Positions 29,191 through 58,443 of a stretch of 64,000 nt of DNA are shown here, piece by piece. Position 1 is the first letter of the stretch. Each line of letters opens with the position of its first letter. The DNA is taken from the NCBI GenBank assembly GCA_000155715.1, contig DS990601.1, forward strand, positions 1 through 64,000. The letters run 5' to 3'. The notes beneath the pieces were generated by a model. The model worked only from the letters and a program-made list of their open reading frames with translations. It did not search any database and was not told the origin of the DNA. The stretch is from a gamma proteobacterium HTCC5015. GTDB taxonomy: Bacteria; Pseudomonadota; Gammaproteobacteria; HTCC5015. The position numbers were made by a program, and so were the translations under genes.

Positions 29191-29196
29191 ACATTG

Positions 29197-30642: not shown

Positions 30643-30692
30643 GCTATGCGACCACCAGACACCTTTTCGTTAGGCTGAATGGAGGGAATGTG

Positions 30693-31373: not shown

Positions 31374-31426
31374 GAAAAACTAAATTCCTGATTTAATATC
31401 ACCCGTTGCACCAATAAGGAATACCA

Positions 31427-32344: not shown

Positions 32345-32358
32345 CAAGAGAACTTCGT

Positions 32359-32685: not shown

Positions 32686-32701
32686 TTTCGATCCTGCGGA
32701 T

Positions 32702-33034
32702 TTACTTTCCCTTTTTTAGGGATTCAGCGTTCAGCAACAAGCTCATTTTTTCCATCAGAATGATTGATGCGTTATTATTGAACTGCTGTCCTTCCTCAAT
32801 GTACTCCCAAACGGTAGAATCACTTTTCCAGCCTCCTTGCTTTTTAATCAGTTCAAAGTCCACGCGCTCCCGTGCCGCCGAGGTAGAGAGGCCGCGACGA
32901 AAACTATGACTGCTTAAGTCGGGCGCAAAATCGAACTGGCAGGCCTTGCCCAAGGTTTTGAGAAGATCGTTTACCGCCCCTGGATTCAGCGCTCTTTTCT
33001 GAACATGATCCCAGCGGTTGATGGGCCTGAAGAG
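32702..33034 (-). pseudogene. tnpS: 3' half of tnpS split by the mercury transposon
   Basis: This is the C-terminal part of a tyrosine recombinase. It holds the HSFRRGLSTSAARERVDFEL box (His and Arg of the active site), GGWKSDSTVWEYIEEGQQ with the catalytic Tyr, and an end differing from the other copies (LLLNAESLKKGK). Its N-terminal half lies at 44120-44817. Removing 33035-44119 and one AAGAG copy rejoins the codons in frame (two bases from the right part, one from the left) and restores NEGPLFRPINRWD, as in the intact copies. The protein was therefore about 340 residues before the insertion. Confidence 0.92.
33030..33034. repeat. Left target duplication AAGAG of the mercury transposon
   Basis: AAGAG abuts the left inverted repeat and equals 44120-44124; removing one copy with the element repairs tnpS. 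Confidence 0.93.
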
Positions 33035-33126
33035 GAGGTCCGGCCGGTAAAAGCGTTGGAATTAGCCACTTCGCATATAACATATTGATTAATATAGTTT
33101 TTAGGAAAAAAGTTTTACTAAAGCCT

Positions 33127-34182: not shown

Positions 34183-34388
34183 GACAGTTTTCCCCGATGA
34201 TAATATCGTAACGTATTACATAAAACGTAATATAACATAATATAGTAACTTCTATTCAGCTCATAAAAATTAAATAGTAACCTTCGATAATGAATGTTAT
34301 CGTTTGTTAAAGCAGAGAGACTTAAATTGTGGGCTTGTAACACCAGTACAGAATGGCCTTTTCAGCGCATCCAAGAAGACTCCTATTT
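34183..34388. other. Putative rst resolution site between tnpT and tnpS
   Basis: The divergent gap holds an inverted repeat: left arm GTAACCTTCGATAA (34277-34290), 6-base spacer TGAATG, right arm TTATCGTTTGTTAA (34297-34310). Ten of fourteen positions pair, with perfect CGATAA cores. This is the shape of a tyrosine-recombinase crossover site. The box CTTGTAACACCAGTACA lies on the tnpS side. The tnpT side is AT-rich with repeated TAACGTATTAC-like words. Known tnpS/tnpT elements resolve at a site in this position. Confidence 0.7.
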
Positions 34389-35411
34389 ATGAACAGTAAA
34401 TTGCCAAAAACCGTCACTGAACTGTCGTTACGTAATGAGCATTCAAGCTTGGTTGCACGCCGAGAAGCCGAGTCGCTGCAGCAATATCTTCAGGCAGCAA
34501 CTTCCGACAACACTCGAAAAGCCTACCGCTCGGCCATTCGGCAGTTTGAAAAATGGGGTGGCCGCCTGCCTACGGATCGGGACACGGTGGTGCGCTACCT
34601 GCTGGCCAGGGCCGAATCGCTAAACCCCAGGACCCTGGATCTGCACCTCACGGCGATCAGCCAGTGGCACCATTTTCAGGCGCTGCCTGATCCGGTCCGC
34701 GATCCTTTAGTGCGTAAAACTATGGATGGCATCCGACGCACGCATGGCCAGCCCAAGCGCAAAGCCAAGGCGCTGCGACTAGAGCACATTGCGCAGATGG
34801 TGAAGCATCTACAGCAACTGCATGACAGCAAGAAGAAGTATCGGGATATCGCGCTGGTGTTAACGGGTTTTTTTGGTGCCTTTCGTCGTAGTGAATTGGT
34901 GGCCATTAAAACCAGTGATCTGATGTGGGAGCCTGAAGGGCTTCTCATCAAATTGCCTCGATCCAAGACCGATCAGCAAGCCACAGGCTTAGTACGGGCC
35001 TTGCCTTTTGGTGCTCCAGGCTGCTGTCCTGCTACGGCCTTGAGGGACTGGATAGAATTGGGTGGCATAAATGAAGGTCCGATTTTTCGCCCCATTAACC
35101 GCTGGGATAAGGTTCAGCCGAAAGCGCTGAATCCCGGTGCCATTAATGAATTACTCAAGAGTTTGGGTAGCGCCTGTCAGTTCGATTTCGTACCTGAACT
35201 GAGCAGCCATAGCTTCCGGCGCGGCCTGTCTACGTCGGCAGCTCGAGAGCGAATTGATTTTGAGTTGATTAAAAAACAAGGAGGATGGAAGAGCGATGCT
35301 ACCGTCTGGGAGTACATTGAAGAAGGACAGCAACTCTCCAATAACGCTACCCATATATTGATGGAGAAAATGGCGGTTCTTATCGATACCATTAATGTAA
35401 ACGGGATGTAA
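34389..35411 (+). CDS. tnpS: TnpS tyrosine recombinase (cointegrate resolvase)
   Basis: A 340-residue tyrosine recombinase that resolves transposition cointegrates. The N-terminal SAM-like DNA-binding domain is at about 30-120 (ATSDNTRKAYRSAIRQFEKW). Catalytic residues are Arg in GAFRRSELVAI, Lys in LPRSKTDQQ, His and Arg in SHSFRRGLS, and Tyr in VWEYIEEG. I chose ATG 34389 because all three tnpS copies share an SLRN-E motif about ten residues after this point and similar upstream bases. It is divergent from tnpT. merR begins two bases after its stop on the same strand, so merR is probably transcribed from within or upstream of tnpS. Confidence 0.92.
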   Translation: MNSKLPKTVTELSLRNEHSSLVARREAESLQQYLQAATSDNTRKAYRSAIRQFEKWGGRLPTDRDTVVRYLLARAESLNPRTLDLHLTAISQWHHFQALPDPVRDPLVRKTMDGIRRTHGQPKRKAKALRLEHIAQMVKHLQQLHDSKKKYRDIALVLTGFFGAFRRSELVAIKTSDLMWEPEGLLIKLPRSKTDQQATGLVRALPFGAPGCCPATALRDWIELGGINEGPIFRPINRWDKVQPKALNPGAINELLKSLGSACQFDFVPELSSHSFRRGLSTSAARERIDFELIKKQGGWKSDATVWEYIEEGQQLSNNATHILMEKMAVLIDTINVNGM

Positions 35412-35413
35412 GC

Positions 35414-35800
35414 ATGACACGAACCATCAGTAAAGTTGCCGAAGAACTGGCTATCAATATAGAAACTGTACGTTTTTATGAGCGTCGCGGCTTGATACAG
35501 CAACCACCAAAACCTGAACTGGGTTACCGCCATTATCCCGATGAAACAGTGAACCGCATTCGTTTCATTAAGCGGGCGCAAGAGTTGGGGTTTACCCTGG
35601 AAGAGATCGCCAACCTGCTCAGCTTGAATGACCGCCCATGTGCTCAGGTGCAGGAACTGGCCGAATATAAACTCAGCGCCGTCAAAGAAAAAATGGCTGA
35701 CTTACGTCGCCTTGAGAAAGCGCTCAAGGTCTTACTCGCACAGTGCCACAGTAATGATGATGACAGCCACTGTCCCATCATCGATTCCCTGCAACCTTAA
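35414..35800 (+). CDS. merR: MerR mercury-responsive regulator
   Basis: A 128-residue MerR-family regulator that represses mer without Hg(II) and activates it with Hg(II). The winged helix-turn-helix is at the N-terminus (ELAINIETVRFYERRGLI), then a dimerisation helix. The Hg-binding Cys residues are C76, C111 and C120; the spacing of 35 and 9 equals that of Tn501 MerR (82, 117, 126). The gene lies on the same strand as merTPCA and two bases after tnpS, unlike Tn21 and Tn501 where merR is divergent. It could also act on the matching operator at 63046. Confidence 0.95.
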   Translation: MTRTISKVAEELAINIETVRFYERRGLIQQPPKPELGYRHYPDETVNRIRFIKRAQELGFTLEEIANLLSLNDRPCAQVQELAEYKLSAVKEKMADLRRLEKALKVLLAQCHSNDDDSHCPIIDSLQP

Positions 35801-35833
35801 TTAATTAGTTTTACACGGGCATCACAAAAACGC

Positions 35834-35865
35834 TTGACTCCGTACATCGGTACGGAGATTACACT
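35834..35865 (+). promoter_or_regulatory. merT promoter with MerR operator
   Basis: A -35 box TTGACT (35834-35839) is followed by the dyad CCGTAC-ATCG-GTACGG (35840-35855). The -10 candidate is TTACAC or TACACT (35859-35865), giving a 19- or 20-base spacer. The long spacer with a dyad inside it is the hallmark of MerR-activated promoters. It drives merTPCA. Confidence 0.9.
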
Positions 35866-35897
35866 TGCTCCATACACTGAAATCAGAGGAGTAAGTC

Positions 35898-36245
35898 GTG
35901 TCACAGAAAGAATCCAATCTACCTATTATTGGCGGCGTTATCGCAGCTGTTGGCGCTGGCCTGTGCTGCGCTGGTCCTTTCGTCTTGTTGCTGCTAGGAG
36001 TGAGTGGCTCCTGGATTGGTAATTTAACCTTGTTAGAACCGTACCGCCCCATTTTTATCCTGCTGGTTTTAGCCTTATTTGGATTTGCTGGCTGGAAGGT
36101 CTATCGCCCCGTTGAGGCGTGCGAGCCAGGCACCGCCTGTGCAGTTCCTCAAGTGAGAAAACGACGGCAGGTGATCTTTTGGTTAACGACACTGACTGCG
36201 TTGGTGCTAGTCACCAGTAATTATTGGATTGTCTGGTTTGCCTGA
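35898..36245 (+). CDS. merT: MerT mercuric ion transporter
   Basis: A 115-residue inner-membrane protein with three helices that brings Hg(II) into the cytoplasm for reduction. The Cys pair C23-C24 (GAGLCCAGPF) lies in the first helix and the cytoplasmic pair C75 and C81 (ACEPGTAC) in the loop before helix three, as in known MerT. The start is GTG at 35898 with AGAGGAG seven bases upstream. It is the first gene after the mer operator and is followed by merP. Confidence 0.94.
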   Translation: MSQKESNLPIIGGVIAAVGAGLCCAGPFVLLLLGVSGSWIGNLTLLEPYRPIFILLVLALFGFAGWKVYRPVEACEPGTACAVPQVRKRRQVIFWLTTLTALVLVTSNYWIVWFA

Positions 36246-36299
36246 ACACTTTCTTACCGCTCACTTTTATTAATGACTTATACGTTACTGGAGAAAATG

Positions 36300-36575
36300 A
36301 TGAAGAAAATTGCCTTGTTGTCTTTGCTAGCCTTGACCAGCCTGACCGCTTTTGCTGCGCCGAAAACAGTTACTTTGGAAGTTCCAACCATGAACTGTGT
36401 GACCTGCCCCTTTACGGTCAAAAAGGCATTAAAAAATGTTGAGGGTGTGAGTAAAGCTGAAGTCACCTTTGAAACAAAATTGGCAGTAGTCACTTTTGAC
36501 GACGAAAAAACCACGGTAAAAGCACTGACCCAAGCCACCACTAATGCGGGTTATCCGTCAACGCTCAAGGAGTAA
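36300..36575 (+). CDS. merP: MerP periplasmic mercury-binding protein
   Basis: A 91-residue periplasmic protein that binds Hg(II) and passes it to MerT. The signal peptide is KKIALLSLLALTSLTAFAA. The HMA domain contains the metal motif MNCVTCPFTVKK (C33 and C36) and ends NAGYPSTLKE, typical for MerP. GGAG lies seven bases before ATG 36300, preferred over ATG 36297. It stands between merT and merC in one transcript. Confidence 0.95.
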   Translation: MKKIALLSLLALTSLTAFAAPKTVTLEVPTMNCVTCPFTVKKALKNVEGVSKAEVTFETKLAVVTFDDEKTTVKALTQATTNAGYPSTLKE

Positions 36576-36578
36576 AGC

Positions 36579-36998
36579 ATGGATTTATTAATAAAGTTAC
36601 TCACCCGGTTCGGCGATAAGATTAGCTCATTGGGCGCGCTGGTTTCTGCCATGGGATGCGCCATGTGTTTCCCGGCCATTGCCAGTCTGGGCGCTGCGGT
36701 AGGACTGGGTTTTCTCAGCCAATGGGAAGGTTTGTTTGTTAATACCCTGTTACCGTTGTTTGCCTGGATAGCCCTGGTACTCAACGGACTTGGCTGGCTC
36801 AGTCACCGGCAATGGCACCGTAGCGCGCTGGGTGTGGTTGGCCCCATTTTATTGCTGTTATCGCTCTATCCGTTTTTCCAATACGGCTGGAGCAGCTATG
36901 TCACCTATTCAGCATTAGGCCTGATGGTTGCCGTATCGCTTTGGGATATTTTTTCACCGGCGAATAAACGCTGTGATGATGAAAGTTGCGCGGTTTAA
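36579..36998 (+). CDS. merC: MerC mercury transporter
   Basis: A 139-residue inner-membrane protein with four helices, an additional Hg(II) uptake route. The Cys pair C27 and C30 (SAMGCAMCFPA) in the first helix and a C-terminal CDDESC are the MerC pattern. AAGGAG lies just before the ATG. It begins three bases after the merP stop, so it is translated with it. Confidence 0.93.
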   Translation: MDLLIKLLTRFGDKISSLGALVSAMGCAMCFPAIASLGAAVGLGFLSQWEGLFVNTLLPLFAWIALVLNGLGWLSHRQWHRSALGVVGPILLLLSLYPFFQYGWSSYVTYSALGLMVAVSLWDIFSPANKRCDDESCAV

Positions 36999-37026
36999 CC
37001 CGACGAAATGCCTGACTACAATTTGA

Positions 37027-38703
<1,677 letters not shown>

Positions 38704-38714
38704 GAGAGGGCAGT

Positions 38715-39515
38715 ATGGGAACGGCTCACGCCACGCATTCACTGACAGCCCCAACGGTCAATGCGTTGGCGGATGGATTGAACAAGGGTGAATTCGTTCC
38801 TTTTTACCAGCCCCTATGGGACGTTCAACGCCAATGCTGGGAAGGCGTTGAAACGCTCGTTCGCTGGCAACATCCAACTGAAGGATTGATTCAGCCCGAC
38901 ACCTTTATTCCCGTTGCCGAACAAAGCGGATTAATTCTGGAACTGGGCGCGTTTGTCTTACAGGCGGCCTGTCAGCAGATGATGCACTGGCGTCAACGCG
39001 GCCTACCCGAGGGTATCATCGCGGTCAATGTCTCTGCATTACAAATCCACCAACCTGACTTTGTCGAAGACCTTGCCAGGATTTTGCGTGATACGGGACT
39101 GCCAGCTCCGGCATTGGAGCTGGAATTAACCGAAACACTGGCCCTGGAGGATACACCGATCCTGATCGAAAACCTGCATCGCTGCCAGGCGCTGGGCATT
39201 CGCCTGTCCATTGACGATTTTGGTACCGGGAGTTCGTCGCTGGCACGCTTGCAATGCTGCCCAGTGACCCGGCTAAAAATCGACAAAACCTTTGTCACGC
39301 ATATGACAACCGAGCCAAAGGATCGCGCCATTACCGAAAGCATCATTACCCTTGGGCATAACCTGAATTTATCCATCGTCGCGGAAGGGGTTGAGACGGC
39401 CGCTCAGCAACAACTTTTAGAGAAGCTTGGCTGTGATGTCTTACAGGGCTATCGGCTGGCGCGGCCAGCTGATGCCATAACCACGGCAACGCTGTGGCCA
39501 AGCCATAATGCTTGA
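38715..39515 (+). CDS. EAL-domain protein inside the mer operon (Urf2-like)
   Basis: A 266-residue single-domain EAL protein, the fold of c-di-GMP phosphodiesterases. Seen motifs are PFYQPLWDV, NVSALQ, LELELTE, LSIDDFGTGSSSLARL, KIDKTFV and VAEGVETAAQQQ. The signature itself reads ETL (GVETLVRW) instead of EAL. An EAL protein, Urf2, also accompanies mer genes in Tn21-type elements, but there it lies at the end of the operon; here it sits between merA and merD. No sensory domain is attached. AGAGAGGG precedes ATG 38715. Activity against c-di-GMP is uncertain because of the altered signature. Confidence 0.87.
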   Translation: MGTAHATHSLTAPTVNALADGLNKGEFVPFYQPLWDVQRQCWEGVETLVRWQHPTEGLIQPDTFIPVAEQSGLILELGAFVLQAACQQMMHWRQRGLPEGIIAVNVSALQIHQPDFVEDLARILRDTGLPAPALELELTETLALEDTPILIENLHRCQALGIRLSIDDFGTGSSSLARLQCCPVTRLKIDKTFVTHMTTEPKDRAITESIITLGHNLNLSIVAEGVETAAQQQLLEKLGCDVLQGYRLARPADAITTATLWPSHNA

Positions 39516-39534
39516 AACAAATGGAGACAAACCT

Positions 39535-39969
39535 ATGTCAAAAGCCACCGTGTCAAAAGATGTGTCACGATACTTTGAAGTGATCCCTGATTTTGCGGCG
39601 TTCATGGATAACGAAGGGCAAACACTTGAGTTTCCCTTAACGATCTCGCAACTGGCGAAAGCCGCGCAAACCACAGTCCATACCGTCAGGAATTACGTCC
39701 TGGAAAATTTGGTACTTTGCCCTGAGCATTCCTCCGGTGGTTTCGGTTTATACGATCAATGCGCCTTAAACCGGCTGCGCTTCATTCGCGCGGCACGTGC
39801 GGCAGGTTTGTTGATTTTGGATATAAAACCCTTGCTCCACGCCATCAACGAAGGCGACCAGCAAGCCTGTGAAGCGGCCATGCGCGAATTGCAAACCAAA
39901 ATTGATGAACGCCAGGCATACTTGCAGGCATTGGATTCACAGCTGTCGGAGCTGCGTCAACTGGCCTGA
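39535..39969 (+). CDS. merD: MerD-like MerR-family co-regulator
   Basis: A 144-residue MerR-family protein. The helix-turn-helix reads LTISQLAKAAQTTVHTVRNY, followed by the MerD-like SGGFGLYDQCALNRLRFIRA and a C-terminal dimerisation helix. The Hg-binding Cys residues of MerR are absent, as in MerD, which is thought to displace Hg-MerR and shut the operon down. The first about 30 residues (VSRYFEVIPDFAAFMDNEGQ) extend beyond typical MerD. GGAG lies eight bases before ATG 39535. Confidence 0.85.
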   Translation: MSKATVSKDVSRYFEVIPDFAAFMDNEGQTLEFPLTISQLAKAAQTTVHTVRNYVLENLVLCPEHSSGGFGLYDQCALNRLRFIRAARAAGLLILDIKPLLHAINEGDQQACEAAMRELQTKIDERQAYLQALDSQLSELRQLA

Positions 39970-39992
39970 TCGCGATAACAAAGGAGTATACG

Positions 39993-40388
39993 ATGTCAGA
40001 AAAATGTGAAACCGGACCCCACGACTGGGTAGCCAATAAAGGCCGATTTATTCTCACCTGGGTATTGCCAGCGATACTCATAGTGATTACCGGCGTGATG
40101 CAACTTGCACCGTGGATAACCGGCAGTATCTGGGCGATCGCTTTAAGTTGGATGGGATATGCCTGTTTAAGAAATGCGCGTCAATGTGGCCGAATGCATT
40201 GTTTTTTCAGCGGGCCATTTTTTCTGGGTTCCGCCATGTTGGCATTGGGTGTTGGGATGCAGTGGATACAATGGCCCACCTTTAACGGACTAGGACTCTT
40301 TTTACTGATCGGTACACCACTGGTTTGCGTGTTACCGGAGATGTTCTGGGGAACTTACAAAGTTGCGACACACGGCAAAGAAGAATGA
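39993..40388 (+). CDS. Unknown membrane protein of the mer operon
   Basis: A 131-residue protein with three or four membrane helices (FILTWVLPAILIVITGVMQL, then GSIWAIALSWMGYACL and two further ones). The loop CLRNARQCGRMHCFFSG contains three Cys and one His close to the membrane, which would suit metal or thiol chemistry. I do not recognise a family. AAGGAG lies before the ATG, 23 bp after merD. The next gene's ATG overlaps its TGA by four bases, so they are translationally coupled. Position suggests a role in mercury handling; this is inference. Confidence 0.75.
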   Translation: MSEKCETGPHDWVANKGRFILTWVLPAILIVITGVMQLAPWITGSIWAIALSWMGYACLRNARQCGRMHCFFSGPFFLGSAMLALGVGMQWIQWPTFNGLGLFLLIGTPLVCVLPEMFWGTYKVATHGKEE

Positions 40389-40951
40389 ATGCGATAGCGG
40401 AGCGCGCTACAAACTCTATAAAATGCCTCTGGTCACTTGTGGTGTATGCATTTCAATCTCCGGTTCAGGATTCTCACTCAAAACGGCGTACCGCGATCCT
40501 CTTTAGTCTGGTGCTGGTCGTCCACTTGGTTGTCCTGCCAGCGCATGTTCTGGGTTCCGATATTGGTTTTCGATCTTTTGCACATCTTAATCTGAGTATT
40601 GCACTATTTGCGTTTCTGTTCGCAACACTGGAGAGCGTGCTCATCAATTTATGGGTTCAACTGATACGCCAGAAGACCCATTGCAGAACGGCTTCAGCGG
40701 CGGGCGGCATGTTGATCGGGCTCGTGAGCCCCCTCTTGTGTTGTACCCCGCTGCTGCCGACCTTCTTAAGTTTTGTCGCCATACTGTTTCCTTTTGCTGT
40801 TTCTGGTATGGGTCTCAAAATTCAGTATGCGGTCAATGTCTATCAAACCGAAACGTTGCTGTTGGCGTTGGTATTACTGTTGTTTGCGATTGTTCAAAAT
40901 GCTTGGCACCTCAATTCAGGCACCGTAATGGCAGGCCATCACAAGGAATAA
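40385..40951 (+). CDS. Unknown membrane protein with CC motif, mer operon
   Basis: A 188-residue protein with about five hydrophobic helices. A MerT-like segment GLVSPLLCCTPLLPTFLSF (near residues 113-131) has a vicinal Cys pair in a helix, as in MerT and some other metal transporters, and it is preceded by QKTHCRTASAAGG. It ends MAGHHKE. No family is recognised. Its ATG overlaps the preceding stop (ATGA), so both membrane proteins are likely made together. A transport role for Hg(II) or for a product of detoxification is inference. Confidence 0.72.
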   Translation: MNAIAERATNSIKCLWSLVVYAFQSPVQDSHSKRRTAILFSLVLVVHLVVLPAHVLGSDIGFRSFAHLNLSIALFAFLFATLESVLINLWVQLIRQKTHCRTASAAGGMLIGLVSPLLCCTPLLPTFLSFVAILFPFAVSGMGLKIQYAVNVYQTETLLLALVLLLFAIVQNAWHLNSGTVMAGHHKE

Positions 40952-41067
40952 AGCAATGAAAGCCACTTGCGACTAATCTGGGAAAACCCAAATGACAACT
41001 AAAAACCTAATAACTATAACGCGATGCTTTTACACAATAATGCATCTGTCAGAGAAAATTTAAGTCG

Positions 41068-44055
41068 ATGGCCGCTATCTATCAGACAGCTTATCCACGA
41101 ATTAAATCTGATATCACGGAAGATGAGTTAGGGGATGTCTTTACACCTACGCCGGAAGAGAAAAAGTTTGCACTGCGTCACTGTAAACGAACCAGCGCAT
41201 CCTTTTTGGGGCTCCTGATTCAGCTAAAAATCACACAGCGATTGGGCCGGTTTGTGAACCTGGGCGAAGTACCAAAGGTGATCATCACGCACATTAAAAA
41301 TCAGTGCCGTTCGCGGGTGACACTGAAGGATCTCCAAACCTATTACACATCGGGCGCGAAGGATCGTCACGTAAAGCTGATTCGACGCCATCTCAATATC
41401 AAAGCCTACGATGCGGCCAAGACCTCTGCATTGGCGCAGACATGGGCACTGGAAGCAGCGACCACCAAAGAAGCATTAGCGGATATCATCAATGTCACGT
41501 TGGAATATTTGGTAAAGGAGCGATACGAACTCCCGGCGTTCAGTGTACTTGAGCGGATATGTCAGGCGGCCAGGGCCGAAGTCAACACTCGGTATTACGA
41601 TCAATTGTGTGGCTTTTTAGAGTCTGAAAGTCGCCAATGCATCAACGATATTCTTCGATCCAGCACAGGACTGAATGGTTTTGGTTGGAGCACGCTGAAA
41701 AATGAACCCAAACGCCCGACCCCTCGTAATATCCATGCGTATATCCAATACCTGGAATGGCTGACCTCCCTGCAAACACTTTTGCCCACGGATTTGGCTT
41801 TGCCGCCGGTGAAGCACCAGCAGTTTATCAACGAGGCCAAGGCCCTGGATTACGCCGAATTGATGAAACTAAAGCTGAACAAGCGACTCGCACTCGTCAT
41901 CGTTTTAATCCGGCACCAATACGCACAAACACTGGATAACGCCGCCGATATTTTTATCAAGTTGCTGTTAAAAATGGATCGCTCGGCGCAGAAGCTGCTG
42001 GAGAAATACCTGGCAGACCATCAAAAGCAAACCGATCATTTGATTTCTGTACTGTCTGGGACAGTCAAGGTGTATCTGGATAAACCCGATTCAGTGACAG
42101 CTTTTGACCCGGTACTGGGAAAGAACAGTGATCAGTTACTGGCAATGTGCGAACAATATATGGCATTCGCTGGCAACAACTATTTACCGTTCATGGTACA
42201 ACTCTACAAAAAGCAACGATCCACCTTGTTCCGCACGATTGAAATACTCAACCTGGCATCGACCACGGAAGACAAGGACTTGCTCAATGCGTTCCAGTTT
42301 ATTTTGAAGCACAAAAAGCGTCGCACGGAGTTCCTGTCAATTCAAAGCGATCCGAACGATCCATCTTCCAGGAATGTCCTCAATATTCGCTGGATTCGCG
42401 AAAGCTGGTGGAAATTAGTCACGGGAAAATCAACCAAATCAGCACAGGTGACGGAGGTTAATAAAACCTGTTTTGAGCTGTGTGTGTTTGAACGGATCGC
42501 TGAAGAACTGAGTACCGGTGACTTGTTCATTCCCTACAGTGAAACCTTCGATGATTACCGGGAGCAGATGATCACCTGGGAAGAATACGAAGCGCAGTTG
42601 CCTACCTATTGCGAGGAGGTAGGGCTCGTCGCCGGTGATACTGAATTTACAAAAACGCTGAAGGAGTCCATGGAAACGAGCTGCCGGAAAGCTGACAGCC
42701 AATTCCCAGAGGACGAACTGGTTCGTATTGAAAACGGGAATCTGATTATCGGTAAACCAAAGCCTGATCAACCCTTACCAGAAGTCGAAGAAATTGGAGC
42801 GCTTTTGCGCGATCGGCTGGACAAAATCAACCTGCTTGATGTGATTATCAATGTCGAAAAGTGGCTGAACCTGAATAAACATTTTGGCCCGTTGTCGGGC
42901 TTCGAATCACGTATCAGCGACCCGGAGTTACGTTTTGTCCTGACCGTGTTTTGTTACGGTACCAACATTGGCCCCACCGAAACCGTGCGATCTGTGCAGG
43001 GTGTTTCTCGTAAGCAGGTAGCATGGCTTAATTTAAAGCGCACGACCGAAGCCCGTCTCGATAAAGCTATTGCGAAGATTAATAGCGAGTACAAGAAATA
43101 CCGGCTCATCGAGTGTTGGGGATCGGGCAACAGTGTGTCAGCCGATGGAAAACTTTGGGATCTCTACGAAGATAATTTGCTATCGGAGTATCATATTCGT
43201 TACGGCAGCTACGGCGGTATTGCTTATTACCACGTTTCGGACACCTATATTGCGTTGTTCAGCCGGTTTATTCCCTGCGGTGTCTACGAGGCGATTTATA
43301 TCCTGGACGGCTTACTCAACGACGAATCTGATTTCAATCCAGACACCGTTCACGGGGACACACAGGCGCAATCTACACCGGTGTTTGGCTTGGCGTACCT
43401 GCTGGGCATCAAGCTTATGCCCCGCATCCGAAATATTAAAGATCTTAGTTTCTATAAGCCTGACCGCGCTATGGTGCTCGATCATATTCAGTCCTTGTTC
43501 AAGGAGCCGATCAAGTGGGATCTCATTGAAAAGCACTATGCGGATATGATGCGAACGGCCATGTCAGTTAAAGCAGGGAAAATCACCGCTTCGACAATCC
43601 TGCGCCGGTTCGGCACCAAGAACCGGAAAAACAAGCTGTACTTTGCGTTCCGTGAACTCGGGCGCGTGGTCAGAACCATGTTTTTGCTGGAATACATTAC
43701 CGACGTTGATCTGCGCAAAACAATCCAGGCAGCGACCTGTAAGAGCGAAGAGTTCAATGAGTTTGCCCGGTGGTTGTTTTTTGCTAATGGCGGGAAAATT
43801 CCTGCAAACTTGAGACACGAACAAAGCAAAATTGTTAAATACAATCATTTGCTGGCCAACTTCGCGATCTTATACAACGTAAACGCGATGACCGAAGTGT
43901 TCAATCAATTGAAGTCGGAAGGGTACAATATAACCCGCGACCTTATGGCCGAATTCTCACCGTATCATACCGAGCATTTAGGGCGGCTAGGAAGTTTTGA
44001 GCTGGATCTAACCAAGCAGGTTAAGCCCATGACTTTTGAACTGCTGGTTGATTAA
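41068..44055 (+). CDS. tnpA: Tn3-family transposase of the mercury transposon
   Basis: A 995-residue DDE transposase. N-terminal DNA-binding part: TAYPRIKSDITEDELGDVFT. The catalytic Asp residues are in SADGKLWDLYEDN and VHGDTQAQSTPVFGLAYLLG and the Glu in CKSEEFNEFARWLFFAN. The stop lies 26 bp before the right inverted repeat. The protein is very close to the outer transposase at 55388. Differences concentrate in the first 100 residues (roughly a quarter differ by eye), while the catalytic half is almost identical. It can be expected to act on both elements' ends, which share a right repeat. Confidence 0.95.
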   Translation: MAAIYQTAYPRIKSDITEDELGDVFTPTPEEKKFALRHCKRTSASFLGLLIQLKITQRLGRFVNLGEVPKVIITHIKNQCRSRVTLKDLQTYYTSGAKDRHVKLIRRHLNIKAYDAAKTSALAQTWALEAATTKEALADIINVTLEYLVKERYELPAFSVLERICQAARAEVNTRYYDQLCGFLESESRQCINDILRSSTGLNGFGWSTLKNEPKRPTPRNIHAYIQYLEWLTSLQTLLPTDLALPPVKHQQFINEAKALDYAELMKLKLNKRLALVIVLIRHQYAQTLDNAADIFIKLLLKMDRSAQKLLEKYLADHQKQTDHLISVLSGTVKVYLDKPDSVTAFDPVLGKNSDQLLAMCEQYMAFAGNNYLPFMVQLYKKQRSTLFRTIEILNLASTTEDKDLLNAFQFILKHKKRRTEFLSIQSDPNDPSSRNVLNIRWIRESWWKLVTGKSTKSAQVTEVNKTCFELCVFERIAEELSTGDLFIPYSETFDDYREQMITWEEYEAQLPTYCEEVGLVAGDTEFTKTLKESMETSCRKADSQFPEDELVRIENGNLIIGKPKPDQPLPEVEEIGALLRDRLDKINLLDVIINVEKWLNLNKHFGPLSGFESRISDPELRFVLTVFCYGTNIGPTETVRSVQGVSRKQVAWLNLKRTTEARLDKAIAKINSEYKKYRLIECWGSGNSVSADGKLWDLYEDNLLSEYHIRYGSYGGIAYYHVSDTYIALFSRFIPCGVYEAIYILDGLLNDESDFNPDTVHGDTQAQSTPVFGLAYLLGIKLMPRIRNIKDLSFYKPDRAMVLDHIQSLFKEPIKWDLIEKHYADMMRTAMSVKAGKITASTILRRFGTKNRKNKLYFAFRELGRVVRTMFLLEYITDVDLRKTIQAATCKSEEFNEFARWLFFANGGKIPANLRHEQSKIVKYNHLLANFAILYNVNAMTEVFNQLKSEGYNITRDLMAEFSPYHTEHLGRLGSFELDLTKQVKPMTFELLVD

Positions 44056-44081
44056 CCCATAATATTCAATCGGTTACGTTA

Positions 44082-44119
44082 GAAGTGGCTAAATTCAACG
44101 CTTTTACCGGCCGGACCTC
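44082..44119 (-). repeat. Right terminal inverted repeat of the mercury transposon
   Basis: Thirty-eight bases, read inward GAGGTCCGGCCGGTAAAAGC and onward. It is identical to the right repeat of the outer element and is followed by the AAGAG duplication. Confidence 0.95.
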
Positions 44120-44817
44120 AAGAGGGGGCCCTCATTGATACCAGCTACTTTCATCCATGCTTCGATCGCTGTAGCCGGACAACAAATTTCAGCCCCCAAA
44201 GGTAAAGCACGAACCAACCCCTTTGATTGCTGATCGGTTTTGGAGCGAGGCAACCGAATGATCAGACCTTCCGGCTCCCACACCAAGTCCTTTATTTGTA
44301 TTGCGACCAGTTCGCTGCGGCGGAACCCCCCAAAAAAGCTGGTTAATACCAGCGCAATGTCCCGGTGCTTTTTTTTGCTGTTTGGGAGTTGCCGCATGTG
44401 ATTCACCATTTCGGCGATGTGCTCCAGACGCAGTGCCTTGGCTTTGCGCTTGGGCTGACCATGAGTGCGACGGATGCCTTCCATGGTTTTGCGGACCAAC
44501 GGATCACTTATCGGATCAATGAGTCCTTGGTAATGGTGCCATTGGCTAATGGCGGTCAAGTGAAGATCCAGGGTTCGGGAGTTGAGCGATTCGGCTCTGC
44601 CCAGCAGGTACCGGACGACAGTATCCCGGTCTGTGGGCAGGCGACCACCCCATTTTTCAAATTGCCGAATGGCCGAACGGTAGGCTTTACGCGTGTTGCC
44701 GGATGTCGCTGCCTGGAGGTATTGCCGCAATGACTCGGATTCCTGGCGTTCAACCAGGATCGAATCCTCATTACGTAATGACAAGTCGCTAGCTTGTTTT
44801 GGTGGTTTGTTGTTCAT
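44120..44817 (-). pseudogene. tnpS: 5' half of tnpS split by the mercury transposon
   Basis: The N-terminal about 230 residues of a tyrosine recombinase: MNNKPPKQASDLSLRNED, the core-binding domain with KAYRSAIRQFEKWGGRLPTD, the Arg box GGFRRSELVAIQ and the Lys segment LPRSKTDQQSKG. It stops at NEGPL where the mercury transposon begins. The His, second Arg and Tyr residues lie in the other half at 32702-33034, so this copy cannot be active. The start at 44817 has AAGGA upstream. It is head-to-head with the intact tnpS at 45004. Confidence 0.92.
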
Positions 44818-44854
44818 CAATAGGATTTCCTTCGATGTCACCCAAAAGGCGGCT

Positions 44855-44970
44855 ATGTACCGACGTTACAAGTCGAAAATTTACTTCAAGATCCATTAAC
44901 CTCCGATAATGAGCGTTATCGTGGGTTAAAGTATTTGGTTGAAAATTTTCAGCTTGTAACGCCGGTACAT
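44855..44970. other. Palindromic rst-like site between two head-to-head tnpS genes
   Basis: The core is TTAACCTCCGATAA (44896-44909), spacer TGAGCG, TTATCGTGGGTTAA (44916-44929); 12 of 14 arm positions pair. Outer boxes ATGTACCGACGTTACAAG (44855-44872) and CTTGTAACGCCGGTACAT (44953-44970) are also inverted copies of each other. In the tnpT-tnpS gap at 34.2 kb this outer box occurs only on the tnpS side. So both halves here are tnpS-type halves. Confidence 0.78.
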
Positions 44971-45003
44971 CGCCCCCTTTCTGCCGTCTTCAATAGGAAT
45001 CCA

Positions 45004-46011
45004 ATGAACCGCGAATCACCAGAAATGGCCACCGACTTATCGTTACGTAATGAAGAGTCAAGCCTGACTACCTATCAGGAAGCTGAGTCACTGCGGCACT
45101 ACCTCCAGGCAGCCACTTCAGACAGCACGCGAAAAGCTTACCGCTCGGCGATCCGGCAGTTCGAAAAATGGGGTGGAAGACTACCAACGGATCGGAATAC
45201 TGTGGTGCGCTACCTGTTAGCCAAAGCCGACTCCCTCAACGCTCGGACCCTGGATGTCCACCTCACGGCCATCAGCCAATGGCACCACCACCAGAGCCTG
45301 ATCGATCCCGTGCGCGATCCGTTGGTGCGCAAAACCATGGAAGGTATTCGCCGCACCCATGGCCAGCCCAAGCGAAAAGCCAAGGCGCTGCGCATGGAAC
45401 ACATCGCTCAGATGGTGAAGCATTTGCGGCGCTTGCCCGATAGCAAGAAGAATTTCCGAGATATAGCCCTGGTGTTGACGGGCTTTTTCGGGGCCTTTCG
45501 ACGGAGCGAATTAGTGGCCATACAAGTCAGCGATCTAGCGTGGGAGCCAGAAGGCCTGATTATCCGCTTGCCGCGCTCGAAGACTGATCAGCAAGCAACC
45601 GGGTTCGCCCGAGCCCTACCTTTTGGTGCCGAAAACTGCTGTCCTGCCACAGCGATTAAGGCATGGATGGAGGCGGCCAGCGTTGAGGATGGCCCTCTGT
45701 TCAGACCCGTCAATCGGTGGGATCAAGTGCACGAAAAAGCCCTGAATCCAGGCGCAATCAACGACCTGCTCAAAACTTTGGGAAAGGCCTGCCAGTTCGA
45801 TTTTGTACCGGACCTGAGCAGCCATAGCTTCCGCCGAGGCCTGTCCACGTCGGCAGCACGGGAACGGGTGGATTTTGAGCTAATTAAAAAACAGGGAGGT
45901 TGGAAGAGCGACGCCACAGTCTGGGAATATATTGAAGAAGGTCAGCAATTGTCTAACAACGCGACGGTGATATTGATGGAAAAGATGGCATCCATCATGT
46001 TATCCCCGTAA
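45004..46011 (+). CDS. tnpS: TnpS tyrosine recombinase (outer transposon)
   Basis: A 335-residue tyrosine recombinase with all catalytic residues: Arg in GAFRRSELVAIQ, Lys in LPRSKTDQQ, His and Arg in SHSFRRGLST, Tyr in VWEYIEEGQQ. The N-terminal domain reads ATSDSTRKAYRSAIRQFEKW. The ATG at 45004 is preceded by AGGAA and matches the start of the two other copies. It is the only intact tnpS of the outer element, whose own tnpT is truncated, so it may depend on TnpT of the nested mercury transposon. It lies head-to-head with the split tnpS and is followed by metal module 2. Confidence 0.92.
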   Translation: MNRESPEMATDLSLRNEESSLTTYQEAESLRHYLQAATSDSTRKAYRSAIRQFEKWGGRLPTDRNTVVRYLLAKADSLNARTLDVHLTAISQWHHHQSLIDPVRDPLVRKTMEGIRRTHGQPKRKAKALRMEHIAQMVKHLRRLPDSKKNFRDIALVLTGFFGAFRRSELVAIQVSDLAWEPEGLIIRLPRSKTDQQATGFARALPFGAENCCPATAIKAWMEAASVEDGPLFRPVNRWDQVHEKALNPGAINDLLKTLGKACQFDFVPDLSSHSFRRGLSTSAARERVDFELIKKQGGWKSDATVWEYIEEGQQLSNNATVILMEKMASIMLSP

Positions 46012-46127
46012 CGCATTCTCCGGACTCGTAATCGCTATCGATATCTGAATGGGACAATGGGCTTTTGATTCTCGCGTTTTATTGTTAGTATCCAGCATCC
46101 ATTTTTATGAGTCGGTCTGTTTTGATA

Positions 46128-46493
46128 ATGAATCGTTGGTTAACAATCGTATTAGCACTGGTGATTGCGCTGCAGTCACTGGCAGCTATTGGCGATATAA
46201 ATCAACCTCATTATCCCGCTACGCCTTATCACGCTCATGATCACGGGCATTCCCATGAAGACGTCCTCCTTGACTCGGTCACTCTGGAAATGGAGGAGTC
46301 TTCGACCTCATCGGACCCTTCGCGAGATCACGCGTCCGATCATTGCCATCAAAACCATGCCCATTTTCACATGGTGCTGGTGAGCGCGGCAACGGATATT
46401 GCCGTTTTGTCCGCCGGCCAGCGCTTGTCCGACTATCAAGCCCGTCATACTTCAGTCATCCCACCCTCCCTGTTCCGCCCTCCCATCGCCTAA
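46128..46493 (+). CDS. Small secreted His-rich protein at head of metal module 2
   Basis: A 121-residue protein with a signal peptide (MNRWLTIVLALVIALQSLAA). The middle is His-rich (YHAHDHGHSHED, then DHCHQNHAHFH), fitting periplasmic metal binding. It ends VIPPSLFRPPIA, identical in its last ten residues to the module 1 protein at 22421. ATG 46128 aligns with that protein's start; an ATG at 46107 adds seven residues. It precedes the RND trio by 60 bp and is presumably in the same transcript. Function unknown. Confidence 0.75.
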   Translation: MNRWLTIVLALVIALQSLAAIGDINQPHYPATPYHAHDHGHSHEDVLLDSVTLEMEESSTSSDPSRDHASDHCHQNHAHFHMVLVSAATDIAVLSAGQRLSDYQARHTSVIPPSLFRPPIA

Positions 46494-46553
46494 TCCTACG
46501 GCCCATCCCGTCCAGGGAACATTTTTCATTTAGACTTTCGTAGGAGAAGTACC

Positions 46554-47864
46554 ATGCTTTTTTGCACGCCCATGAGTTCTGGGTGGCGTTTACTGCCGCG
46601 TCAGATTTGTGTCCTTTTTTTATATTCCTTCGCGCTGGCGTCCACAGTTACCGCCGTTCACGCCGCCGAAGCGTCCCTAACCTTGACCAAGGCCCTCTCT
46701 CGGGCGATGGCACAAAATCCCGGTCTGCGGGTATTCGATTTTCGCCTGCAGGGGCTTGAGGGAGAACGCCTTATGGCCGATCAGGCACCGGCCTATGAAG
46801 CAGGCCTAGAGGTGGAGAATATGCTCGGTAGCGGTGCCCTGCAGGGTGTCGACGGGGCCGAATATACCTTGTCGCTTTCCTCGGTCATCGAGCTGGGCGG
46901 TAAACGCCGAGCCCGCACGGGCGCTGTAAGCTCGCGCGACGACCTGGTAGAGGCCGAACGTGAAGCCGAGACTCTGGATTTGTTGGGCCAGGTGACTCAA
47001 CGCTATGTTGCGACCTTGGCTTTGCAGGAAAAGCTCGATTTATCCGCTCGTGCGGTGGAATTAAGCGAAGCCACCCTCAACACCGTTACCGGCCGTGCAA
47101 AACAGGGCGCCGCACCAGAGGCCGAAGTTCTGCGCGCCAAGGCCGCTCTTACCCAGAGCCGGATCGCCCACGACGCTCTGCAAACGGAGTACGAGAAGCG
47201 GAAAATGGCGCTGGCCTCGCTCTGGGGGGAAACACGGGTGGATTTTCAGCAGTTGCAGGGCGATCTGTTCCGGTCTGTTCCCAGTGAGCGGTTCGAGGTG
47301 CTCTACCGGCAGGCCAGCGAGAGCCCTCTGATCCGGGTCTACGCCAGCGAGCGACGTCTGCGCGATGCTGAGATTCGGCTCGCGCGGAGCCAATCGGAAA
47401 GCGATATCCGCTGGCAGGTAGGAGCCCGCCGTTATGAGGAAACGGGCGATACCGCGCTGACGGCGGGAATATCCCTGCCGCTGTTTGCCGGACGCCGGAA
47501 CCGGGGCGAGGTGCAAGCGGCCATGGCCGCGCGCAACGAGGTGGAGTACCGCCAACAAAGCGCGCTGCTGCAATTGCACGCTCTGCTGTTCGAGGCTTAC
47601 CACACCCATCAACAAAACATCGATGCGGTTGAGCGGCTGCGCTCCACTGTGCTGCCGGATCTGACCAAGGCCCTCGAGCTCACTCAAAAAGCCTACGAAC
47701 GCGGTCGCTACACCTATGTGGAACTGACCGCCGCACAGCGCGAACTACTCTCGGCCCGCGAGGCACTCGTCGAGGCAGCCGCCACGGCGCTGCTCAACCA
47801 GGCCCTTATCGAACAGCTCACGGCGCAGTCTATGACCCAGCGCCAAGCCGCGCCCACGCGCTAA
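46554..47864 (+). CDS. czcC: Outer-membrane factor CzcC-like, metal module 2
   Basis: A 436-residue TolC-type outer-membrane channel. After a signal peptide (ending AVHAAEA) come two OEP repeats of long helices. The first includes LTLTKALSRAMAQNPGLRVF and the glycine-rich strand LSSVIELGGKRRARTG; the second includes AGISLPLFAGRRNRGEVQAA. The last is typical for CzcC. TAGGAGA precedes the ATG by six bases. It forms the export duct of the tripartite pump with the next two products. Confidence 0.9.
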   Translation: MLFCTPMSSGWRLLPRQICVLFLYSFALASTVTAVHAAEASLTLTKALSRAMAQNPGLRVFDFRLQGLEGERLMADQAPAYEAGLEVENMLGSGALQGVDGAEYTLSLSSVIELGGKRRARTGAVSSRDDLVEAEREAETLDLLGQVTQRYVATLALQEKLDLSARAVELSEATLNTVTGRAKQGAAPEAEVLRAKAALTQSRIAHDALQTEYEKRKMALASLWGETRVDFQQLQGDLFRSVPSERFEVLYRQASESPLIRVYASERRLRDAEIRLARSQSESDIRWQVGARRYEETGDTALTAGISLPLFAGRRNRGEVQAAMAARNEVEYRQQSALLQLHALLFEAYHTHQQNIDAVERLRSTVLPDLTKALELTQKAYERGRYTYVELTAAQRELLSAREALVEAAATALLNQALIEQLTAQSMTQRQAAPTR

Positions 47865-47889
47865 TCACCGAACACAGGATTATTGAACC

Positions 47890-52244
<4,355 letters not shown>

Positions 52245-52385
52245 TGGACAAACAGCTCCGGGGGTGTCCCGGAGCCTGTTCCAGCAACCCTCTATGAGCA
52301 CAGTGGGGTTGTGGGAGCCTGCGAGCTCAAATCCAACAATCCACGTATGATCGGTTCGATCATCACTATCAAGGGTAATGAAATT

Positions 52386-53237
52386 ATGCTTAAACTCTTA
52401 TTTATCGCTATAACCTCCCTTGCCAGTGTCACGGCCTGGGCGCATGGCATGTCGGCGGAAGACCAGGCCCGCATACTCAATGCGGGCTACTTCGAGTACA
52501 TCCGACTTGGTGCCACCCATATGCTTAGCGGCTATGACCATTTGCTGTTTCTGTTCGGCGTCATGTTCTTTTTGACGCGCTTTGGCGAAATCATCAAGTT
52601 CATCACCGCCTTCACCATCGGCCATTCCATTACCTTGGTATTCGCCACATTATTTAGTATTACTGCTAATTACTATCTAGTTGATGCAGTGATTGCCTTG
52701 ACCGTCTGTTACAAAGCCTTCGACAACCTTGGTGGCTTTCAGAAGCATTTGCAGATGAAGTCTCCGAACCTGACCTGGATGGTGTTTGTGTTCGGTCTGA
52801 TTCACGGGTTTGGTCTGTCCACCCGGTTGCAACAGTTGCCCCTGGGCGACGATGGTCTGGTATTGAAGATACTGTCGTTCAATGTCGGCGTCGAGTTAGG
52901 CCAGGTTGTGGCCTTGAGCATTATGCTGGCCCTGCTCATGGTGTGGCGAAAAACCGCGTCATTTCATCGCTTCAGCAAAGCATCCAATGTGGCGCTGATG
53001 CTCGCCGGTGGCCTATTGCTGCTGATGCAGTTACATGGATTCCAGCACACGCAGTACTCGGATGATTTCCCCCTCAACCGGGATGGTCACCAGCATGCGC
53101 ACGAGGACATGAGGGATAACAAAGCCCCTCTGTCAAACTACCCGAAACGCCTTGAGCTGGGAGCCCCATCAGCTGACCCGCAGCCCGAAGTACCTAAAGT
53201 CCATCGCCACGAGGGTGGCGAGCCTCACGCGCATTAA
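52386..53237 (+). CDS. HupE/UreJ-like membrane protein, metal module 2
   Basis: A 283-residue membrane protein of the HupE/UreJ type, associated with nickel or other metal transport. A signal peptide (LLFIAITSLASVTAWAHG) precedes YIRLGATHMLSGYDHLLFLF, FTIGHSITLVFATLF and FGLIHGFGLSTRLQQL, which supply the conserved His residues in helices. The tail is His-rich (RDGHQHAHEDM and PKVHRHEGGEPHAH). The start at ATG 52386 gives a clean signal peptide; a longer reading from 52311 does not. It lies 141 bp after czcA and may import or export metal for the module. Confidence 0.82.
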   Translation: MLKLLFIAITSLASVTAWAHGMSAEDQARILNAGYFEYIRLGATHMLSGYDHLLFLFGVMFFLTRFGEIIKFITAFTIGHSITLVFATLFSITANYYLVDAVIALTVCYKAFDNLGGFQKHLQMKSPNLTWMVFVFGLIHGFGLSTRLQQLPLGDDGLVLKILSFNVGVELGQVVALSIMLALLMVWRKTASFHRFSKASNVALMLAGGLLLLMQLHGFQHTQYSDDFPLNRDGHQHAHEDMRDNKAPLSNYPKRLELGAPSADPQPEVPKVHRHEGGEPHAH

Positions 53238-53266
53238 TCTTGTTTAATTATTTAGGAAATACCGTT

Positions 53267-53617
53267 ATGAAGCTTTTTACCGTCATTTTTTCACTGATTT
53301 TACTGTCCGGCTTTCAGCTGGCTTTTGCACACAGTGATCACGCTCACGGACCGATTACTGAAGCGTCCGCGCTTCAACTCGCCAAAGAGGCGATCATCCA
53401 ATTGACAGAGAAGGACGCGGGACTGGGTTTTGGTAAATTGCCCAACAACTGGAAGGCAACGCCAGCGACCGCTGCAAAAATTCATAAGAAGAGCAGCGAT
53501 TATTTCATCGTCTCGGTGGCCAATGCGACTGAGGCAAAAACGCTCTACGTACTCATATCAAGCGACGGGGAAGTCTACGACGCGAATTTCACAGGTGAAT
53601 TTGACGGTCTGGAGTAA
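53267..53617 (+). CDS. Small periplasmic protein after the HupE-like gene
   Basis: A 116-residue protein with a signal peptide (LFTVIFSLILLSGFQLAFA) and a His-containing mature start (HSDHAHGPITEASALQLAKE). The rest is a small alpha/beta domain ending LYVLISSDGEVYDANFTGEF, which recalls PepSY-like folds. I do not assign a family. AGGAA lies ten bases before ATG 53267. It sits between the HupE-like and DUF3147 genes, so metal binding is suggested by context only. Confidence 0.7.
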   Translation: MKLFTVIFSLILLSGFQLAFAHSDHAHGPITEASALQLAKEAIIQLTEKDAGLGFGKLPNNWKATPATAAKIHKKSSDYFIVSVANATEAKTLYVLISSDGEVYDANFTGEFDGLE

Positions 53618-53625
53618 CGGCATTT

Positions 53626-53985
53626 ATGGCATGGCAATGGCTCATCATCAAATACCTGATTACCGCCGCCATCGTGGTGGTGGTTTCGGAGGTTGCAAGG
53701 CGCAGTGACAAGTTAGGTGCGCTGGTGGCGGCACTGCCTTTGGTGACCATTCTGGTGCTGATTTGGCTGCACGTGGAAAATCAGCCCCAGGAGAAAATCG
53801 CCCGGCATGCCTGGTATACCCTCTGGTATGTGCTGCCGACATTGCCGATGTTTCTAAGTTTTCCATTACTGTTGGGTCGATTGGGCTTCTGGCCAACGCT
53901 GCTTGCCAGCTGCGCGGTTACCGCGATTTGCTTCGGCATCTTCGCGCTGCTGTTGCGCCAATTTGGCATTAATTTGTGGCCTTGA
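53626..53985 (+). CDS. DUF3147-like membrane protein
   Basis: A 119-residue protein with four membrane helices: WLIIKYLITAAIVVVVSEVA, GALVAALPLVTILVLIWLHV, TLWYVLPTLPMFLSFPLLLG and LASCAVTAICFGIFALLLRQ. It resembles the DUF3147 family, whose function is unknown. It follows the preceding gene by 8 bp and lies 68 bp before the CDF exporter. Nothing in the sequence points to a metal-binding residue set. Confidence 0.72.
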   Translation: MAWQWLIIKYLITAAIVVVVSEVARRSDKLGALVAALPLVTILVLIWLHVENQPQEKIARHAWYTLWYVLPTLPMFLSFPLLLGRLGFWPTLLASCAVTAICFGIFALLLRQFGINLWP

Positions 53986-54053
53986 TATGACTGAAGACCA
54001 CGGATACGTCCATGCACGTTTAACCCTTGAACCACTATAACGAGGTGAGATGA

Positions 54054-54977
54054 ATGCGTCACCATGATCACGCGCACACTCATTCAGACGACACCAGTTC
54101 CAGACGTCTTGGCCTAGTATTCTTTCTCAATGTGGGGTTTACCCTCATCGAGTTTGTTGGGGGCTTGTTGACCAACAGCACGGCCATCCTGGCCGATGCA
54201 GTGCATGACCTGGGCGATAGCCTGTCCATCGGCAGTGCCTGGCTTCTGAACCGGCAGGGACGCAAAGCGGCTGACCGCGAATTTACCTATGGCTATCGCA
54301 GGCTATCGTTGTTCGGTGCCCTGATCAACGGATTGGTCCTGGTGGGCGGGTCGCTGTGGGTGCTCAGTGAAGCGATCCCCCGGCTGGCCGACCCTATCAT
54401 GCCAGTCACCGAAGGAATGCTCGCGTTGGCCCTGTTGGGGGTTACAGTCAATGGGTTCGCGGCCTACCGTCTGAGTAAAGGGAAGTCACTGAACGAAAAA
54501 GTGCTCAACTGGCACTTACTAGAAGATGTCCTGGGCTGGGTCGCGGTGCTGATCGTCTCGATCATTTTGCAATTCGTGGACTGGCCCATCCTCGATCCCT
54601 TACTGTCCATCGGTTTTACCCTGTTTATTCTGGTAAATGTAATCCGCAACCTCTGGGCCACCGGCAAACTCTTTATCCAGGCGGTACCAGACCCGGCGCT
54701 GCATGATGCGATTCGGCGAACGCTGCTCGGCATTGAGCATATCAGCGAGGTTCACCATCAACACCTCTGGTCCCTGGATGGCGAGCGCCATGTTTTAACA
54801 GTGCATTTGGTGGTGAGAGACTCTTTTCCGTTGGAGCAATACCCCGCCACCAAGATGGCGGTGGCCGATGCACTTGAGCCATACCAACTGGCTCACACTA
54901 CCATCGAAATTGAACTGCCGACAGAATCCTGTCGAGATTCCTCTGACCAGCATTCAGCTGCTGGCGAGCATCACTAG
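54054..54977 (+). CDS. CDF family cation exporter, module 2
   Basis: A 307-residue cation diffusion facilitator, paralogous to the one at 31427 and similar along its whole length. The metal-site pairs are H51-x3-D55 in TM2 ([10 protein letters not shown]) and the equivalent HLLED in TM5. The N-terminus is more His-rich (RHHDHAHTHSDD). The C-terminal cytoplasmic domain ([20 protein letters not shown]) is complete. It probably exports Zn or Cd to the periplasm for the CzcCBA pump. ynfA follows 12 bp later, as in module 1. Confidence 0.93.
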   Translation: MRHHDHAHTHSDDTSSRRLGLVFFLNVGFTLIEFVGGLLTNSTAILADAVHDLGDSLSIGSAWLLNRQGRKAADREFTYGYRRLSLFGALINGLVLVGGSLWVLSEAIPRLADPIMPVTEGMLALALLGVTVNGFAAYRLSKGKSLNEKVLNWHLLEDVLGWVAVLIVSIILQFVDWPILDPLLSIGFTLFILVNVIRNLWATGKLFIQAVPDPALHDAIRRTLLGIEHISEVHHQHLWSLDGERHVLTVHLVVRDSFPLEQYPATKMAVADALEPYQLAHTTIEIELPTESCRDSSDQHSAAGEHH

Positions 54978-54989
54978 AAGAGCAAAATT

Positions 54990-55319
54990 ATGTCGGTTCT
55001 CTACACCCTGGGATTATTCATCATCACGGCCGTGGCCGAAATTGTCGGTTGCTACCTGCCGTATTTGTGGCTGAAAAAATCGGCTCCGGTGTGGGTGTTG
55101 CTGCCGGCCGCCGCAAGCCTTGCGCTATTCGCCTGGTTGCTGTCCCTGCATCCGACTGACGCCGGACGGGTGTATGCGGCCTATGGTGGCGTCTATGTGT
55201 CCGTTGCCTTGCTGTGGCTCTGGGGTGTGGACGGGGTTCGTCCTCATCCGTGGGATTTTGTGGGCGTGGCGGTAACGCTCGCGGGTATGGGCATTATCAT
55301 GATGGCCCCGCGAGGATGA
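54990..55319 (+). CDS. ynfA: YnfA/UPF0060 small membrane protein, module 2
   Basis: A 109-residue four-helix protein nearly identical in plan to the one at 32359: [20 protein letters not shown] at the start and [18 protein letters not shown] at the end. It always follows the CDF gene in this window. The transport substrate is unknown. It lies 68 bp before the outer tnpA and closes the cargo of the outer transposon. Confidence 0.9.
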
Positions 55320-55387
55320 CAGGTGCTACGACTACAAAAAAGAACATTAATGAAAACCATGCTATAGATCTGAAGTGAAGTGAACTC

Positions 55388-58378: not shown

Positions 58379-58405
58379 TGCTATTAGTTTCAATAGGTTA
58401 TAGGG

Positions 58406-58443
58406 GAAGTGGCTAAATTCAACGCTTTTACCGGCCGGACCTC
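58406..58443 (-). repeat. Right terminal inverted repeat of the outer transposon
   Basis: Thirty-eight bases identical to the right repeat of the mercury transposon and one base different from the left repeat at 15691. Confidence 0.94.

Follow-up and report, generated by a model that had tools for sequence, protein, structure and literature searches.

How could a transposon resolution site come to have a tnpS gene on either side? The rst layout of Tn4651-type elements has been described (PMC4619425, PMC7157771), and in the account of Yano 2013 given in PMC4619425, TnpS of Tn4651 has its site of action in the core, and an accessory inverted repeat of rst serves as the binding site of TnpT. At the locus considered here, two tnpS genes diverge from an intergenic site at 44842-45003, in place of the divergent tnpT and tnpS that border a usual site. 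The locus lies in a window of 64,000 nucleotides, the whole stretch of DNA analyzed, taken from contig 27 of a draft genome that amounts to 2.6 Mb over 30 contigs.

Results

Two tnpS-side halves meet inside an rst core

The features of the site (S-S site) and of its two flanking genes, tnpS_L and tnpS_R, are as follows.

32711..33034, minus strand: C-terminal part of tnpS_L (tblastn continuity; AAGAG duplication on both sides)
44125..44817, minus strand: N-terminal part of tnpS_L (tblastn; 94.5% DNA identity to L015-L017)
44818..44903, minus strand: left S-half, belonging to tnpS_L (S profile +64.2 bits, T profile -56.9)
44904..44921, no strand: rst core CGATAATGAGCGTTATCG (CGATAA-TGAGCG-TTATCG), with the S-S junction within (homology to S_L relatives stops past the core)
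44922..45003, plus strand: right S-half, belonging to tnpS_R (S profile +57.9 bits, T profile -49.7)
45004..46011, plus strand: tnpS_R, a complete tyrosine recombinase (Pfam Phage_integrase, 5.6e-14)

The profiles come from an alignment of 50 sites of related elements, 49 of which, all tnpT-tnpS sites, were used to describe the T side and the S side. The repeat bound by TnpT reportedly lies in the tnpT-side half of rst, and the T-half motif in the 50-site alignment agrees with an accessory repeat on the tnpT side. Both halves of the S-S site score as S-type and not as T-type, which bears out the proposal, made earlier from the sequence alone, that the site is built from two tnpS-side halves. 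The left half is identical at 57/60 positions to the S-half of L030/L041. The TnpT-side half with its TnpT-binding inverted repeat is missing from the S-S site (T profile of -57 and -50 bits). When all 64 kb were scanned, an S-half above 20 bits was found elsewhere solely at the ordinary inner site (34303), and this inner site, at 34.2 kb, also holds the only strong T-half of the window, one of its halves scoring as T and the other as S.

The core itself is of the usual kind. The inverted repeat CGATAA-N6-TTATCG is present as in the 50 aligned sites and in pND6-1, and TnpS is predicted from this likeness to recognize it. TnpS_R is 33% identical to TnpS of pWW0 (Tn4651), with the catalytic motifs aligned, and both TnpS_R and the inner TnpS carry the integrase domain PF00589 and keep the R-H-R-Y catalytic motifs intact in alignment with pWW0 TnpS. 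The DNA match of the left side to the S_L relatives L015-L017 persists through the core and is then lost, with 7/46 and 7/50 positions matching on the far side. The S-S site thus consists of two S-halves joined inside the core.

Around this junction lies a 120-bp imperfect palindrome centered at 44912.5, in which 45 of 60 mirror pairs match, compared with 25/60 for the next-best center in the 170 bp scanned. The sequence-only reading noted mirrored core arms and mirrored outer TGTAC/GTACA boxes. An inner core palindrome is normal in every rst site; the mirrored outer parts are the oddity. That reading had also placed the palindromic site at 44855-44970. The site stands, but its extent needs correction, as the S-halves reach both tnpS starts, giving a span of about 44818-45003. 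A search of the S-S site for a consensus sigma-70 promoter was negative.

The arrangement is derived

The relatives counted were those fetched loci that have a further resolution gene divergent from tnpS and at most 400 bp from it; two of the 62 represent the same place. The neighbor of tnpS is tnpT in 62/62 and a second tnpS in 0/62, so the S-S arrangement is supported as derived rather than ancestral. An ancestral head-to-head tnpS pair was not seen among these loci, in line with the earlier expectation that the usual site lies between divergent tnpT and tnpS. The S-S pattern was found in none of the 368 class genomes besides its own (369 scanned), which is a weak test. A distant-mode plasmid search gave no match covering 80% of the site. 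The pattern was likewise not found in viral contigs, again a weak test, with the core plus S-half pattern alone also having no viral match.

The window holds nested transposons

The S-S site is part of a larger composite.

15686-15690: target duplication TCAAT, left side of element 2
15691..15745, plus strand: left terminal inverted repeat of element 2 (94% identity to the repeat ending at 58443)
15829..16700, minus strand: C-terminal remnant of tnpT2, the tnpT of element 2 (tblastn, 65-69% to tnpT)
16701..16738, plus strand: terminal repeat of element 1, GAGGGTCGGCAACGATTC..., inside tnpT2
16740..19754, minus strand: tnpA of element 1, tnpA16 (Pfam DDE_Tnp_Tn3, 4.8e-143)
22357..33034, plus strand: element 1 cargo (czc efflux block, CzcD-like, YnfA-like) up to tnpS_L
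33035..44119, plus strand: mercury transposon inside tnpS_L (terminal repeats, 5-bp AAGAG duplication)
33127-35411: ordinary tnpT-rst-tnpS of the mercury transposon
41068-44055: tnpA of the mercury transposon
46107..58378, plus strand: element 2 cargo (second czc-type cluster) and tnpA (Pfam)
55388-58378: tnpA of element 2, tnpA55 (Pfam)
58390..58443, minus strand: right terminal inverted repeat of element 2
58444-58448: target duplication TCAAT, right side of element 2

Positions 15691-58443, most of the window, form one large Tn3-family element with the full set of features of that family, namely terminal inverted repeats, a DDE transposase and a 5-bp target duplication. Within it lie two metal-efflux clusters of the czc type and three Tn3-type transposase genes. 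Because TCAAT flanks both the 15691 end and the 58443 end, both ends derive from one insertion.

The shortened tnpT2 suggests how one element came to lie inside the other. DNA alignment of the remnant with relatives ends at 16696-16698, and the GAGGGTCGGCAACGATTC repeat that follows also adjoins a related tnpA in L128, in L020 and, with its first 18 bases identical, in L129. As tnpT2 is broken at 16700 by this terminal repeat, element 1 probably inserted backwards in the tnpT of element 2. The suggestion that the beheaded tnpT at 15.8 kb is the remains of a T-T partner is therefore not upheld, as the gene was cut by the end of another Tn3-family transposon, which starts at 16701. The transposase of element 1, TnpA16, is 44% identical to both other transposases of the window, and the relative orientation of tnpA16 and S_L is that of one inverted element nested in tnpT2. 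Elsewhere, a tnpA16-type transposon lies within tnpT, after about codon 96 (L020, 2680-6037). In this transposon family, tnpT seems to be a repeated target of insertion.

The origin of the left S-half can be followed further. L017, L113 and L029 are tnpT-tnpS elements whose S side is collinear with both parts of tnpS_L, its S-half and the neighboring czc block; the element 1 cargo reaches 92-97% identity to them in the best cases, except for an insertion at 29239-31432. This collinearity runs as far as the core and ends there, so the left half derives from an ordinary tnpT-tnpS element in the opposite orientation. For tnpS_R, no close parent was found in plasmids, genome contigs or its own family and order; the best DNA match was 78% (L020). 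Two insertions are seen on the element 1 side. The segment at 29239-31432, which separates the czcA-like and czcD-like genes, holds nhaA-type antiporter and methyltransferase genes and is missing at that place in L017, L113 and L029, and an IS1380-like insertion (DDE_Tnp_1_4 transposase) with duplication TATAA occupies 20676-22356, its empty site being seen in L113.

The tnpT-tnpS-czc module also occurs with a different transposase and the terminal repeat GGGGTTCTGTGGAAGAACC (L113, 169-16319; L114/L115; L116/L117), which indicates that a module of resolution genes and cargo moves between transposase types. One could suppose that a separate L017-type S-half with its cargo was joined to the S-half of element 2 by intermolecular antiparallel recombination and that tnpA16 was brought in later, the 92-97% identity of S_L and czc1 to L017/L113 elements with another transposase and terminal repeat being what such a history would leave. 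We consider this history highly unlikely, however, as it takes more steps and as tnpA16 has the orientation expected of one nested element.

The innermost insertion is the mercury transposon, whose mer gene order is as in L003/L004. Its intact rst, at 34.2 kb, can serve resolution in place of the S-S site. An assembly artefact that fused two rst regions is scarcely credible. The genome is a draft in 30 contigs and contains several rst-like repeats, but the regions have only a core of about 18 bp exactly in common, which would not suffice to mislead an assembler, and target duplications remain intact around the outer element, around the inner mercury transposon and around the IS.

Exchange at the core and an undeleted counterpart

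Comparison among relatives points to recombination at the rst core elsewhere in the family. Over 1 kb of the T side, L047 and L025 have 98-100% identity, compared with 53-79% on the S side. For L026 and L018 the pattern is the opposite, with an S side of 98-100% identity from 18 to 700 bp off the core (78% beyond) and a T side of 65-79%. On these alignments, natural exchange between different transposons at the rst core, in the normal alignment, is well supported. The T and S halves of rst are likewise shuffled between L048 and L017, with the switch at the core, which points to natural exchange of the TnpS type.

The plasmid pTE101a of Alteromonas macleodii (NZ_CP018322.1, L120) contains at 11084-15653 two inverted rst sites that face each other. 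A chromate transposon there carries, in the 3' end of its tnpT, a mer element whose end is of the GGGTCTTGTGGAAGAACC type. The geometry predicted for a precursor of the S-S site thus exists intact in pTE101a. As in the model proposed below for the window, one element lies inside the tnpT of the other, with S-T and T-S facing; unlike the window, the arrangement is still undeleted, the elements are of the mer and chromate type, and the left element lacks an intact annotated tnpS.

A probable single deletion between two rst cores

We propose that a single deletion, made by TnpS with its endpoints in two oppositely oriented rst cores, left the S-S site as its scar, a reading that we regard as probable though far from certain. 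The alignments show two S-halves, no T-half, nested ends, target duplications and endpoints that map to the cores. The missing parts are T-half 1, tnpT1, the far end of element 1, the rest of tnpT2 and T-half 2. All of them belong between the two rst cores, so one deletion step suffices.

In the proposed sequence of events, element 2 (tnpT2-tnpS_R, czc2 and tnpA55, with ends at 15691 and 58443) would first have entered host DNA. Element 1 (tnpT1-tnpS_L, czc1 and tnpA16) would then have entered tnpT2 backwards, such that the S_L-T1 and T2-S_R sites faced each other with their T sides inward. The order before the deletion would have been end 2, tnpT2 tail, element 1 (end 1, tnpA16, czc1, tnpS_L, site, tnpT1, end 1), tnpT2 head, site, tnpS_R, czc2, tnpA55 and end 2. 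In the third step TnpS would pair both sites antiparallel, as the near-palindromic core allows, and exchange strands within the core, thereby joining S-half to S-half. A small circle with tnpT1, the far end of element 1, the tnpT2 head and a T-T site would be lost. Last, the mercury transposon, with its own intact tnpT-tnpS, would have entered tnpS_L. The end product would be a single large transposon with two metal-efflux cargoes. We infer the part of TnpS as agent of the S-S event, and likewise the order of the third and fourth steps. The resulting site would no longer be a full resolution site; because the TnpT-side half is missing, we predict it to be inert or undirected.

The core spacer offers a further point. 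The nearest relatives of S_L have the spacer TGCTCA. Read as its reverse complement, TGAGCA, this agrees with the observed TGAGCG at 5/6 positions, and an antiparallel spacer match that good occurs in 16 of 1176 family pairs. The commonest family spacer, TGACCA, likewise matches TGAGCA at 5/6, and for this reason the spacer comparison is suggestive only as support for antiparallel pairing.

The sequence-only reading had also invoked a misaligned TnpS crossover, and its S-to-S crossover is retained here as the best reading. It supposed, however, that two direct rst sites were misaligned by TnpS and the intervening DNA inverted, with a T-T partner to the left. Inversion, too, would account for the strands, with S_L and tnpA16 both on minus and S_R on plus. 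Several observations nevertheless make it quite improbable: the tnpT at 15.8 kb ends at a transposon end and not at a core junction; no T-T site was found in its own genome (by tnpT), in plasmids (by a T-T query) or in the window (by a T-half scan); and inversion needs a further deletion or insertion, whereas deletion takes one step. Moreover, the TCAAT duplication assigns the outer ends to one insertion, but inversion pairs two insertions unless the composite later moved.

The main rival to the deletion by TnpS is an illegitimate deletion at the quasi-palindromic core. Here the same DNA between the inverted cores would be lost by replication slippage or single-strand annealing, without TnpS. 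Through core and arms, the inverted sites share an imperfect direct homology of about 20-30 bp, and the S-S region can form a strong hairpin, with a single-stranded fold of -37.6 kcal/mol compared with -12.7 +/- 2.6 in shuffles (z -9.5). We think such a deletion unlikely, as the junction falls inside the known crossover region and the family repeatedly exchanges naturally exactly there.

Discussion

The S-S site seems to have arisen naturally through a resolution recombinase acting in the wrong alignment, a reaction thought to be blocked by topological control and accessory proteins. Several points count against the deletion by TnpS proposed here: this S-S site is the one known example; neither a T-T circle nor a precursor strain of the window's element was found, nor a close parent of tnpS_R; the homology between inverted sites could lead a deletion without any recombinase to the same place; and TnpT with its binding half is thought to give the rst system its direction. 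Whether TnpS joins rst sites antiparallel without TnpT control as a recurrent route, fusing nested transposons into big metal-resistance units with a symmetrical, directionless site, is a broader proposal that we put forward tentatively and would at present rather doubt. The directionality of the little-studied TnpS/TnpT system becomes testable, and the locus illustrates one way for two resistance transposons to merge into a single mobile unit.

Like rst of Tn4651 (pWW0), the window's sites have a tyrosine recombinase TnpS, an intergenic inverted-repeat core and an accessory half on each side, a description that the inner 34.2-kb site fits; the S-S site differs in having tnpS on both sides and no TnpT-side half, and the TnpS proteins are 33-35% identical to that of Tn4651. 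With TnXax1 and the Tn4651 subgroup the window shares a Tn3-family transposase, terminal repeats that start with GAGG, divergent tnpT and tnpS, and metal or other cargo, whereas the window holds two such elements fused by their S-halves with a third nested in one of them.

Serine resolvases are said to shuffle modules between transposons, which is an established idea. Here too a resolution recombinase would swap modules at its crossover site, as the T/S chimaeras, L047/L025 among them, indicate. Kholodii 2001, cited in PMC12217951, reportedly deals with such shuffling by resolvases among Tn3-family elements. The S-S junction departs from such shuffling in that it needs an antiparallel alignment and yields a symmetrical and probably dead site.
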